From assembly GCF_014837295.1 (NCBI RefSeq), contig NZ_JACYHB010000006.1:1-64000 (forward strand): a stretch of DNA of 64,000 nucleotides, in the 5' to 3' direction. Shown piece after piece: positions 24,581 through 29,241 of the stretch. The notes beneath the pieces are model-generated. The model worked only from the letters and a program-made list of their open reading frames with translations. It was not told where the DNA came from and did not search any database. Both the position numbers and the translations under genes were made by a program. This stretch comes from Cellulosimicrobium arenosum. Lineage in GTDB: Bacteria > Actinomycetota > Actinomycetes > Actinomycetales > Cellulomonadaceae. Numbering within the stretch: position 1 is the stretch's first letter; the number at the start of each line of letters is the position of its first letter.

Positions 24581-25030
24581 ATGACCGCAGCCACCCCGAC
24601 CTCGGCCGCACCGGCGCGCCGTGCCCGGCACGAGGCAGAGCTGCGCGCTCACGGCCTGCGGGTCACGGCCGCGCGGCTCGCCGCGCTCGACGCGGTGGAC
24701 GACCACCAGCACGCCGACGCCGACACCGTGCTTCGTACGGTCCGCGGCGCCCTGGGCTCCGTCTCCGTCCAGGCCGTCTACGACGTGCTGAACACGCTGA
24801 CCGACAAGGGCATCGTGCGACGCATCGAGCCGGCCGGCCATCCCGCCCGCTACGAACGACGGGTCGGCGACAACCACCACCACGTCGTGTGCCGCGAGTG
24901 TGGCGCGGTGGCCGACGTCGACTGCGCCGTCGGGCACTCCCCCTGCCTCACGCCCGCGGACACCGCCGGGTTCCGGATCGACACCGCCGAGGTGACGTTC
25001 TGGGGCCTGTGCCCCGACTGCGCGCGCTGA
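24581..25030 (+). CDS. Fur-family regulator (FurA/CatR type) next to catalase
   Basis: A 149-residue metal-dependent repressor. The winged-helix part (about 20-90) includes [15 protein letters not shown] and [12 protein letters not shown]. The dimer domain has [12 protein letters not shown] and the C-terminal CPDC, giving the two CxxC zinc sites of the family. It is followed by the catalase gene on the same strand, the layout of catR-catA in Streptomyces and furA-katG in mycobacteria. It is thus probably a peroxide sensor that represses both genes. Confidence 0.88.
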
Positions 25031-25197
25031 TCCTCGACCGTCCGCCCACGCCTCCGACGCCCACCGACGCCTCCCGACATCCACCGACACCCAGCGACCC
25101 GGCACTGCCCGTGCCGTCGACCCGGAATCTTGCGAAGAACATCACCTCTGCGCGGGTCGGAACACGACCCGTGCACCGCCCCGACGAAGGAGCACCC

Positions 25198-26709
25198 ATG
25201 ACCGAACCGTTCACCACCACGACCTCCGGCGCCCCGGTCGCCTCGGACGCCCACGCACTGACCGTCGGTGCGGACGGCCCCGTCGTCCTGCACGACCACT
25301 ACCTCGTCGAGAAGCTCGCGCAGTTCAACCGCGAGCGGGTCCCCGAGCGTGTCGTCCACGCGAAGGGCGGTGGCGCGTTCGGCACGTTCACCGTGACGGG
25401 CGACGTGTCCGCGTACACCCGCGCCGCGGTCTTCCAGCCCGGCGCCGAGACCGGCATGCTCGCCCGGTTCTCGACCGTCGCGGGCGAGCACGGGTCGCCC
25501 GACACGTGGCGCGACCCGCGCGGCTTCGCGCTGAAGTTCTACACGTCCGAGGGCAACTACGACCTCGTCGGGAACAACACCCCCGTCTTCTTCATCCGCG
25601 ACGGCATCAAGTTCCCCGACTTCATCCACTCCCAGAAGCGCCTGCCGGGCTCGAACCTGCGCGACAACGACATGCAGTGGGACTTCTGGTCGCTCTCCCC
25701 CGAGTCGGCGCACCAGGTGACGTGGCTGATGGGCTCGCGCGGGCTGCCCCGCTCGTGGCGCGAGATGAACGGCTACGGCTCGCACACCTACCAGTGGATC
25801 AATGCGGCCGGCGAACGGTTCTGGGTCAAGTACCACTTCGTCTCGGCGCAGGGCGTGCACGCGCTCTCGGACGACGAGGCGGCCCAGCTCGCCGGCTCCG
25901 ACGCCGACCACCACATCCGCGACCTGCACGAGCACATCGAGGCCGGCGAGCACCCCCGCTGGACGCTCAAGGTCCAGGTCATGCCGTACGAGGACGCGAA
26001 GAGCTACCGGTTCAACCCGTTCGACCTCACGAAGGTCTGGCCGCACGACGACTACCCGCTCGTCGAGGTCGGGGTGATGGAGCTGAACCGCAACCCGGAG
26101 AACTACTTCGCCGAGATCGAGCAGGCGACGTTCGCCCCGTCCAACTTCGTGCCCGGCATCGCGGCCAGCCCCGACAAGATGCTGCTCGCGCGGATCTTCT
26201 CCTACGCCGACGCCCACCGGTACCGCGTGGGCACCAACCACGCACAGCTGCCCGTGAATGCGCCGCAGACTCACGACGCAGGGCACTCGTACGCCAAGGA
26301 CGGGAACATGCGGTTCGAGTTCGCCGGCGCCACCACGCCGGTCTACGCACCGAACTCGCGCGGCGGTGCGCACGCCGAACCCGCGCGCGCGGGCGAGTCG
26401 TCGGGCTGGGAGTCCGACGGCGAGCTCACCCGCAGCGCGGCGACGCTGCACGCGCAGGACGACGACTTCGGCCAGGCCGGCACGCTCTACCGCGAGGTGT
26501 TCGACGACGCGGAGCGGTCCCGCTTCCTCGACACGATCACCGGCCACGTGGGCGGCGTGCGCGACGACGAGATCCGCGAACGGGCGATCGGGTACTGGAC
26601 GAACGTCGACGCCGACCTCGGCGCGGCGCTGCGGGCCGCGCTGCGCGCCGACGGCGCCCCGGTGGAGGTCGGCGAGCCGGGCACCGCGAGCGAGCCGGTG
26701 CGCGTCTGA
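25198..26709 (+). CDS. katA: Monofunctional haem catalase
   Basis: Breaks down hydrogen peroxide. The 503-residue protein is a small-subunit catalase: distal H54 in [12 protein letters not shown], distal N127 in GNNTPVFF, and proximal haem ligand Y336 in [13 protein letters not shown] with R332. The NADPH-site region is present. GAAGGAG precedes the ATG. The 167-base gap after the Fur gene holds a small palindrome TCTT-GCG-AAGA (25128-25138) that could be a second operator, but no clear promoter is seen. Confidence 0.96.
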
Positions 26710-26771: not shown

Positions 26772-26811
26772 CGACTGCGAGCGGTCCTGCGCGGATGGGA
26801 TGATGGAACGC

Positions 26812-27174
26812 ATGAGCACCGAGGAGTCATCCGCGTACGGCGCGACCGACCAGGCCGTGCGGGACATCGCCGACGTGGCAGCGGTCGAGGTCATCACCTC
26901 GGCCGCCGTGCACCTCATGAGCGCGGCAGCGGTCAAGTGCGGGCTCGCGGAGGACGCGGACGCGCACGAGCACCTCGACCTCGACGAGGCCCGCAAGCTC
27001 ATCACAGCGCTCGCGGCGCTCGTCACCGCGAGCGCCCCCGACATCGGCAACCAGCACGCCCGCTCGCTGCGCGACGGGCTGCGCTCGCTCCAGCTCGCGT
27101 TCCGCGAGGCCTCCGTCTACCCGGACCCCCCGGGCGACGGTCCCGGCGAGAAGTTCACGGGCCCCGTGAGTTGA
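26812..27174 (+). CDS. DUF1844 family protein
   Basis: A 120-residue conserved actinobacterial protein of unknown function. The family core VAAVEVITSAAVHLMSAAAVKCGL (given here in two parts, VAAVEVITSAAVHL and MSAAAVKCGL) is followed by a DLDEARKLITALAALV helix. I use the third of three in-frame ATGs because a GATGAT -10-like element ends 7 bases upstream. In related genomes this gene usually sits on the infC strand; here it is divergent from infC. Its TGA overlaps the TTG start of the next gene. Confidence 0.8.
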   Translation: MSTEESSAYGATDQAVRDIADVAAVEVITSAAVHLMSAAAVKCGLAEDADAHEHLDLDEARKLITALAALVTASAPDIGNQHARSLRDGLRSLQLAFREASVYPDPPGDGPGEKFTGPVS

Positions 27175-27935
27175 GCACACCCTCCACGTCGTCGTCCCCG
27201 GACGGGGCCGACGACGCTCCGCCGCCGGCTCGTCGCACTCCTGCCGGCTCCACGGGGGTGTTCGAGCCCGTGGCCCCGCCCCCGAGGCACGCCCACCCCG
27301 ACGCGGTGCCGTCCGGTACCGACCCTGCCAGCCCGCCGTCCGACCTGGCCGAGTCGTCCGAGCCGTCCGAGCGGACGTCGACGCCGGCCGAAGGGACGTC
27401 GACGCGCGGCACCGCGCGACGACGCAGGGCACGACGGAGCACCGTCGTGATCGTCCTGCTGTCCCTCGCACTGCTCGCGATGCTCGGCCTGGCGGCCTAC
27501 CTGTGGGTCACGACGACCCGGTGGCAGGAGTCCAGCGCCGACTGGGAGGACGAGGCGCGATCGCTCGGCGCCGACGTCGCGTCGCTGCAGTCCGAGCTCG
27601 ACGGCGCGAACGCCGAGCTGGACTCGGCGCGGACCCAGCTCGGCACGGCGCAGGACCGCATCGCCGACCTCGCGAACGAGAAGGCACAGCTCGGCGACGA
27701 GAACGAGGCCTCGCAGCAGTATCTCGACTACCAGAGCCGCGTCTCCGACGCTGCCGGGACCGTCGCCGCCGCGCTCACCCAGTGCACGACGGCGCAGTCC
27801 GAGCTCATCGGCTACCTGGACGACCCCGACGCGTACGACCAGGAGGACCTCGACCGGTTCGCCGAGCAGGTCGACGACCTGTGTCAGGCGGCCACCGACG
27901 CGAACGACCAGCTCCAGCTGGAGCTCGCGGAGTGA
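27171..27935 (+). CDS. Membrane-anchored coiled-coil protein, unknown function
   Basis: I do not recognise this 254-residue protein. Residues 1-90 are Pro/Ser/Thr-rich with an RRRRARR stop just before a single transmembrane helix (91-114). The outer part has a coiled coil (about 118-175, with repeated ELDSARTQL-type heptads) and a helical end with two cysteines (CTTAQS and LCQAATD). The start is TTG, overlapping the DUF1844 stop (TTGA). The stop overlaps the next gene (GTGA), so three proteins are translated in a chain. Confidence 0.7.
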   Translation: MSTPSTSSSPDGADDAPPPARRTPAGSTGVFEPVAPPPRHAHPDAVPSGTDPASPPSDLAESSEPSERTSTPAEGTSTRGTARRRRARRSTVVIVLLSLALLAMLGLAAYLWVTTTRWQESSADWEDEARSLGADVASLQSELDGANAELDSARTQLGTAQDRIADLANEKAQLGDENEASQQYLDYQSRVSDAAGTVAAALTQCTTAQSELIGYLDDPDAYDQEDLDRFAEQVDDLCQAATDANDQLQLELAE

Positions 27936-28675
27936 GCGGCCCTCGCACCGCGCACCGCACCCGTGCCGCGCTCGCCCTCGTCGTCACCGCGACCCTCGGC
28001 GCCGGGTGCGGGATCCTCCCCGAGCTCCCGCCCGACCTCCCGGACAGCGTCGTGCCCTCGGTCCCCCCGGCTCAGGACCCGGCGGGCGCCGACACCCTCT
28101 CCCCCGACGGCTCGGACGCGGTGGAGCGCATGGCCGTGCGGATCCGCAACGTAGGGTGCGACGGCCTGTCGACGGGTTCCGGCTTCGCGATCGACGCACG
28201 CACGCTCATCACCAACAAGCACGTCGTGGACTCCTCGCGCTCGCTGCAGCTGCTCTCCTACGACGGACGGGACATCCCCGTCGACACCGCGAGCACGGCA
28301 GAGCTGGCGGACCTCGCCGTCGTGCGCACGAGCGAGGACCTGCCCTCCTACCCGGACCTCGCGACGTCCGATCCCGTACGGGGCGACCCCGTGACCGTCG
28401 TCGGGTATCCCGAGGGGGGACGGCTCACGATCACGGCGGGCAGCGTCATCGGCACCACCACCGACCCCCTCCACGAGAACCTCGGAGAGGTCCTGCTGAC
28501 CGACGCACCCGTCGAGCCGGGCAGCTCGGGCTCTGCCGCGCTCGACGACGACGGCCGGGTGATCGGTGTCGTCTACGCCAAGACCTCGACCGACAAGTCG
28601 CTCCTGGTCCCGGTCAGCACGCTGCAGGACATGCTCGCCGACGAGGCCATGTTCGTCCCGCTCACCGAGTGCTAG
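27932..28675 (+). CDS. Trypsin-like serine protease, predicted lipoprotein
   Basis: A 247-residue exported protease. The signal peptide ends in a lipobox LGAG-C26, so the mature protein should be lipid-anchored outside the membrane. The chymotrypsin-fold triad is visible: H97 in TNKHVVD, D127 in ELADLAVV and S199 in PGSSGSAAL. The oxyanion loop reads GSSG rather than GNSG. No PDZ domain follows, unlike HtrA. The C-terminal residue is a cysteine, which could bond with C76. It is the third member of the stop/start-linked trio. Confidence 0.8.
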   Translation: MSGPRTAHRTRAALALVVTATLGAGCGILPELPPDLPDSVVPSVPPAQDPAGADTLSPDGSDAVERMAVRIRNVGCDGLSTGSGFAIDARTLITNKHVVDSSRSLQLLSYDGRDIPVDTASTAELADLAVVRTSEDLPSYPDLATSDPVRGDPVTVVGYPEGGRLTITAGSVIGTTTDPLHENLGEVLLTDAPVEPGSSGSAALDDDGRVIGVVYAKTSTDKSLLVPVSTLQDMLADEAMFVPLTEC

Positions 28676-28755: not shown

Positions 28756-29241
28756 ATGGGCACACAGGAGAACACGGGCGCCGACGTCGACCCGGCGTAC
28801 ATCACCAACGCAGCACGGGACACCTTCTCGGTCCGCCGGGTGTTTGGCGAGGCCTACGAACGCGAGGGCACGCTCGTCATCCCGGTCGCGACCGTCTGGG
28901 GCGGAACCGGTTCCGGGTGGGGGGCGGGCTCCGGCGAGCTGTCCGGCAAGGGTGCCGCGGGCCTGCCCGCGATCGGACGCCGGCCACGCGCGGACGACGG
29001 GCCCGCGGGCGACCCGGGGTCCGGCAACGCCGACGGCGAGGCCGGCGGCGAGGGCTCGGGCGGCGGCGGCGGGTTCGGCGTGCGGGTCAAGGCCACCGGC
29101 GTGTACGTGGTCGACGCGGACGGCGTGCGCTGGCAGCCGAGCCTGGACGTCAATCGCATCATCCTCGGTGGCCAGGCCGTGGCCGCGGCCGTCGGCGTGG
29201 CCGCGGCGATCGCGTGGGGTGTCTCCCGGCTGCGTCGCTGA
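28756..29241 (+). CDS. GerW/YtfJ-like protein
   Basis: A 161-residue protein of the spore protein YtfJ/GerW family, recognised by RRVFGEAYEREGTLVIPVATV followed by a Gly-rich GTGSGWGAGSG loop and the VYVVDADGVRWQPSLDVNRI strand pair. A C-terminal hydrophobic helix (about 137-155) may tether it to the membrane. In Bacillus the family acts in spore germination; this lineage does not form spores, so the role here is unknown. It is convergent with the SseB gene. Confidence 0.75.
   Translation: MGTQENTGADVDPAYITNAARDTFSVRRVFGEAYEREGTLVIPVATVWGGTGSGWGAGSGELSGKGAAGLPAIGRRPRADDGPAGDPGSGNADGEAGGEGSGGGGGFGVRVKATGVYVVDADGVRWQPSLDVNRIILGGQAVAAAVGVAAAIAWGVSRLRR

Follow-up and report, generated by a model that had tools for sequence, protein, structure and literature searches.

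Three overlapping genes lie on the forward strand of the window, by which we mean the whole 64,000-nucleotide stretch of Cellulosimicrobium arenosum DNA that was analyzed. Their open reading frames occupy 26812..27174, 27171..27935, and 27932..28675, and the gene positions and both junctions reported in the initial annotation were correct. The first gene encodes a DUF1844 protein of 120 aa when read from the ATG at 26812, and a second in-frame ATG is present at 26800. The middle gene starts with TTG within a 4-base TTGA overlap and encodes a coiled-coil membrane protein of 254 aa. The third gene starts with GTG within a 4-base GTGA overlap and encodes a probably lipid-anchored trypsin-fold protease of 247 aa. 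As described below, the second and third genes form a pair, and the first is an operon neighbor that is probably not a functional member. Genes for a Fur-type regulator and a catalase (24581-26709) separate the DUF1844 gene from infC, and a YtfJ/GerW-like gene (28756-29241; Spore_YtfJ, 3.8e-6) is the next gene 3' of the protease. A YtfJ/GerW-like ORF, recognized by eye, was also seen 3' of the pair in the Cellulomonas locus L033. The operon had been thought to be closed by an RNA hairpin after the third stop codon. The stretch 3' of the protease stop folded at chance level (z 0.28), 117 of 200 shuffled versions being equally or more stable, and a search for a terminator-like site found none. 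The hairpin was not confirmed, and we rejected it as a terminator.

The protease (27932..28675) matched Trypsin_2 (PF13365) over residues 82-213 of 247, with an E-value of 1e-25 and 91.6 bits against a cut-off of 27.6. Its His97/Asp127/Ser199 triad is complete and Pfam gave no PDZ match, as had been noted. When 24 proteases were aligned, Cys26, Cys76, His97, Asp127, and Ser199 were invariant, and Cys247 was kept in 90% or more. In the putative lipobox, Cys26 follows a signal-like stretch; the LGAGC motif of the window protein is imperfect, and several relatives carry LAGC. The active-serine motif was GSSGS in 20 of the 24 proteins, compared with GNSGG in HtrA2, and the others had GNSGS (two), GMSGA (one), or GNSGG (one). 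An AF2 model of the protease (mean pLDDT 77) showed the HtrA-type protease fold. It aligned with DegP/DegQ at Z 21.9-22.3 (rmsd 3.0-3.6 over 186-189 residues) and with MarP at Z 21.3, which are near ties. Against PDB sequences, the protease family profile matched MarP best (3k6y, 2.6e-27), with HtrA2 close behind (5e-27). PADLOC matched the protease domain to RT-Protease (3.5e-19) and to other entries more weakly, which fits the shared trypsin fold.

No Pfam family matched the coiled-coil protein above its cut-off. Of the features ascribed to it, the single transmembrane helix was recognized as a TM-like stretch, and the outer coiled coil was confirmed as a heptad-regular helix. It begins with a cytoplasmic tail of 89 residues (27171..27437), which is of low complexity, variable, and weakly constrained among relatives. 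The transmembrane helix (27438..27509; about residues 90-113) was recognized from the sequence and falls within a long helix of residues 86-174 in the AF2 model. The outer coiled coil (27555..27692; residues 129-174) is marked by heptad register, conservation, and the model. Its register is clean, with a mean hydropathy of 2.48 and 2.33 at the two core positions and negative values at the other five. The model (mean pLDDT 76, pTM 0.37) ends in a two-helix hairpin that carries Cys205 and Cys238 (27783..27884). A Foldseek search of this model against the PDB, which is a weak test for long helices, returned nothing under E 0.001 (best 0.54).

Conservation of the coiled-coil protein is concentrated outside the membrane. 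The most conserved stretch is the end of the coil, RI..LANEKAQLGD (residues 163-176), where identity to the window protein was 0.89, compared with 0.17 in the tail. Trp118, Cys205, and Cys238 (window numbering) were invariant in 23 aligned coiled-coil proteins. Among the 18 rows of alignment A2 whose start is defined, tail length ranged from 9 to 138 residues; the sequences of L033 and L034 start inside the tail and not at a start codon. Longer tails occur in family f9, as in the 339-aa protein of L126. Over six species pairs, dN/dS was 0.42-0.88 in the tail, 0.06-0.82 in the transmembrane helix, 0.00-0.45 in the coil, 0.03-0.31 in the cysteine hairpin, and 0.00-0.25 in the protease domain, and the values for the closest pairs rest on few changes. 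The coil, the cysteine hairpin, and the protease domain are thus under purifying selection. Since the tail is variable and weakly constrained, cytoplasmic signaling by the stalk is unlikely. Six members of family f8 (L118-L123, one genus), which are outside the 23-protein alignment, end shortly after the EKA motif and lack the cysteine hairpin, indicating that the hairpin is not required everywhere. In these six loci, the protease retains its cysteines though its partner has no cysteine hairpin.

We examined whether the genes stay together among relatives. Scanning bacterial genomes yielded 79 loci. We used 35 of them (L003-L037; 60-81% identity) and left out the other 44 as distant trypsin-fold proteins with 24-41% identity. 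The loci used come from records of Cellulosimicrobium, Oerskovia, Promicromonospora, Isoptericola, Cellulomonas, Sanguibacter, and the like. In all 35 loci, the coiled-coil gene was upstream of the protease gene, and the protease start codon lay inside a 4-base overlap with it. The gene overlaps across these loci exceed chance. Within the order, a clear protease ortholog was found in 39 of 218 genomes (best copies 208-430 bits). The ortholog threshold was set by eye at a gap in the scores, the next other protein scoring 93 bits and tandem second or third copies scoring 109-223 bits. A profile built from the C-terminal 174 residues of the coiled-coil protein matched 40 of the 218 genomes at 1e-5, namely all 39 ortholog genomes, each with the match just upstream of the protease, and G082, which has no protease ortholog and gave a weak partial match (1.1e-7). 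Position had helped to find some of the genes behind both profiles, but the profiles themselves carry no positional information. Across relatives, the unit consists of two genes, those for the coiled-coil protein and the protease, and not three; these two would form the functional unit.

The pair is also found in other surroundings. In family f8, it was near recA in the three loci read of seven, and in family f17 it lies in another setting. Of 25 pair copies in 20 further loci (L114-L133), the two genes overlapped in 15 and were within 2 bases in three. In six copies, all from one f8 genus, the nearest start codon found was 26-41 bases away (four copies) or none was found within 60 bases (two). 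In L125, the coiled-coil match used for the spacing was not the adjacent one, and the profile shows an adjacent match. Seven of 14 genomes of one f9 genus carry a tandem double pair, in which each second protease has its own coiled-coil gene. Quick trees were made of 24 proteases and of their 24 partners, for which the program warned of long branches. The second copies of four genomes formed a clade in both trees (SH-aLRT 98 for the protease and 85 for the coiled coil). The first copies, together with the single-copy L133, also grouped (89 and 94, respectively). In these trees, the tandem copies behave like pairs that were duplicated together. The copies of G191 are very divergent and fell outside the first- and second-copy clades in the protease tree. 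This small genome, which has no DUF1844 gene, holds three protease copies and five coiled-coil matches (L124, L125), with two coiled-coil genes side by side before one protease at two places.

We also searched the class. A narrow protease profile at 1e-25 gave one pair outside the order, in G350, a distant pair with the same 4-base overlap, both cysteines, and a GNSGG active site. A broader profile at 1e-15 matched 291 of 296 genomes. Judged by length, most of the matches listed, with frames of at least about 400 aa, resemble MarP or HtrA. The coiled-coil profile, applied to five of these broader-profile loci (L203-L207) with E-values up to 10, gave no match. The proteases of L205 and L206, both truncated at a contig end, are MarP-like, and L207 encodes a longer HtrA-like protein. 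L203 (G511) and L204 (G498), from other families of the class, each encode a lipoprotein-like protease that shares the fold and the cysteine pattern but stands alone. The two lone proteases read suggest that the fold can work without a partner.

The nearest described relatives are MarP and the HtrA/Deg proteases. The mycobacterial MarP (Rv3671c, NF033740) resembles the window protease in having an extracytoplasmic trypsin-fold domain with His-Asp-Ser and no PDZ. MarP has a stabilizing cysteine pair with one member near the C-terminus (PMC4992679). The window protease, too, has a cysteine ahead of the first conserved strand and another close to its C-terminal end; Cys76 aligned with the MarP cysteine preceding the GTGF stretch, and the C-terminal cysteine is beyond the end of the alignment. 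However, the window protease reached 78.2 bits against the NF033740 cut-off of 250 bits. Having only a signal-like stretch and Cys26 at its N-terminal end, and a match that began at position 177 of 390 of the profile, it lacks the MarP four-helix domain. MarP is anchored by four N-terminal helices and cleaves the wall hydrolase RipA under acid stress (PMC6628586), and it requires its membrane tether (PMC4992679). The window system instead combines a probable lipid anchor with a coiled-coil partner that is a protein of its own. MarP scored above its cut-off in 13 of 39 pair genomes versus 93 of 179 others (Fisher p 0.051, kinship uncorrected). Replacement of MarP by the pair was considered as a rule and rejected, since those 13 genomes hold both. 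HtrA/Deg proteases share the fold (DegP, DegQ, and DegS; Z 19.6-22.3 among the matches listed), the HtrA2 sequence match, and the envelope location with the window protease. The latter differs in having no PDZ domain, in being a probable lipoprotein, and in having a dedicated partner gene.

In HtrA proteases, PDZ domains and trimer contacts serve clustering, positioning, and substrate presentation. Apart from MarP and a few HtrA enzymes, little is known about how envelope proteases work in Gram-positive actinobacteria. The initial annotation had suggested that the protease acts on the coiled-coil protein or is controlled by it. The gene pairing in all 39 ortholog genomes strongly supports a link between the two, and sequence accommodates activation, inhibition, and cleavage alike. 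Our preferred reading, which we hold tentatively and at a little under an even chance, is that the protease is bound by the coiled-coil stalk, which serves it as an adaptor or activator. Stalk and protease would be anchored in the same membrane, both facing outwards. The protease would be a lipoprotein with a trypsin fold and no PDZ domain, and a disulfide between Cys76 and Cys247 would probably hold it. The stalk would be a single-pass protein, probably an oligomer, ending in the conserved EKAQ-GD turn and, in most families, tipped by a helical hairpin with two cysteines, which may also be joined. Through physical contact, with control presumably running from stalk to protease, the stalk would cluster the protease, set its height above the membrane, and present substrate. 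By analogy, it would do the jobs of the HtrA PDZ and trimer contacts and of the MarP four-helix anchor, and the protease may then cut one or more envelope proteins, as MarP cuts RipA. The wider proposal is somewhat more doubtful. It holds that the pair is an undescribed two-component envelope protease whose obligate coiled-coil stalk with a two-cysteine tip replaces the PDZ and trimer elements, and whose duplicated lines in one family keep private pairs. Among open-licence full texts, we found no paper on the coiled-coil/protease pair. If the proposal is true, a stalk governs how far a lipid-anchored MarP-like protease reaches, how it assembles, and how active it is. As the clear orthologs never occurred without the membrane partner, the pair would be a small clean system in which to see how PDZ-less trypsin-fold proteases are switched and aimed outside the cell.

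Envelope protease-regulator pairs in which the partner is an inhibitor or a substrate are known. The same pairing evidence would also fit a coiled-coil protein whose outer coil is trimmed or shed by the protease, or one that silences the protease until stress, and the strongly conserved EKAQ-GD turn, which links two helices, might be where the protein is recognized or cut. We regard this as unlikely, at roughly one chance in four, because the protein has no conserved cytoplasmic part to carry a cleavage signal inwards, and the cysteine hairpin past the turn is conserved except in the six f8 genomes, which is unexpected for a discarded piece.

The initial annotation had placed the DUF1844 protein in the system as a cytoplasmic member. 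The first of the three genes clearly belongs to the family (PF08899; E 1.3e-16, 60.9 bits against a gathering cut-off of 27). DUF1844 was near the pair in 28 of 39 pair genomes, within 1.2 kb in 25 and at 2.0-3.1 kb in three (match edge to edge), and the two co-occurred above expectation (Fisher p 9e-6, kinship uncorrected). It was also present in 34 of the 35 named loci, the contig of L014 starting within the coiled-coil gene. In 30 of these 34 loci, the DUF1844 and coiled-coil genes overlapped or were 1 base apart: 13 had a TTG in a 4-base overlap, 11 an ATG in a 1-base overlap, and six an ATG 1 base away. One further locus had an ATG 27 bases away, and L013 had no in-frame start near the stop. 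In L033 and L034 (Cellulomonas), coiled-coil similarity began about 1.8 kb downstream of DUF1844; in L033, an opposite-strand MFS-like ORF (named by eye) splits DUF1844 from the pair, and the gap in L034 is of equal size. Given the 28 genomes and the 30 loci, DUF1844 is a true operon neighbor in the families where it lies near the pair.

However, 128 of the 218 genomes carry a member of the family, and most of these, 93, lack the pair, which is present in the other 35. Conversely, four of the 39 pair genomes had no DUF1844, and seven had it elsewhere (on another contig in six and about 776 kb off in one). We checked 20 of the 128 DUF1844 loci, 18 without the pair and two with the pair elsewhere, and infC was near DUF1844 in all 20, whether or not the genome has the pair. 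The distance was within 0.65 kb in 17 loci, 1.5 kb in two, and 2.6 kb in L197, which resembles the window in having catalase and Fur genes in between. In other families, catalase and Fur genes (L184, L188, L191) or Fur alone (L185) were seen on the opposite side of DUF1844. In three of the four pair genomes that have no DUF1844 (G101, G170, and G191), the pair is still flanked by infC-rplT on one side and by SseB or hisA on the other (genes named by eye). This corresponds to the place of the pair in the window, and DUF1844 was therefore probably lost there. Docking of DUF1844 on the coiled-coil protein is disfavored, as the variable, weakly constrained tail offers no conserved cytoplasmic part. 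Thus, of the adjacency supposed for the trio, the coiled-coil and protease genes were kept together across the order and, the weak G082 match aside, were not found apart at the thresholds used, whereas DUF1844 was not constant and was kept without them. DUF1844 is a steady infC neighbor that the pair adjoins in two of five families. We consider a three-part system with DUF1844 improbable and have demoted it from functional member, so that it drops out of the account of the pair.

Distance correlations, corrected for hisA over 41 taxa, were 0.549 for stalk and protease, 0.637 for protease and SseB, and 0.455 for stalk and SseB; as a test of co-evolution, the stalk-protease value showed no excess over the neighboring control gene SseB. 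This would agree with a pair co-transcribed by chance with separate jobs for each protein, which we nevertheless judge the least probable reading and very improbable, since neither gene stood alone in the 218 genomes at the thresholds used, save for the weak G082 match, and the pair occupies different loci in different families, is duplicated jointly, and mostly keeps its overlap. One of the 35 named loci, L012, is titled Sphaerisporangium cinnabarinum ATCC 31213, and its operon was very close to that of Cellulosimicrobium funkei JCM 14302 (dS 0.02-0.16), suggesting that the record may be mislabeled.
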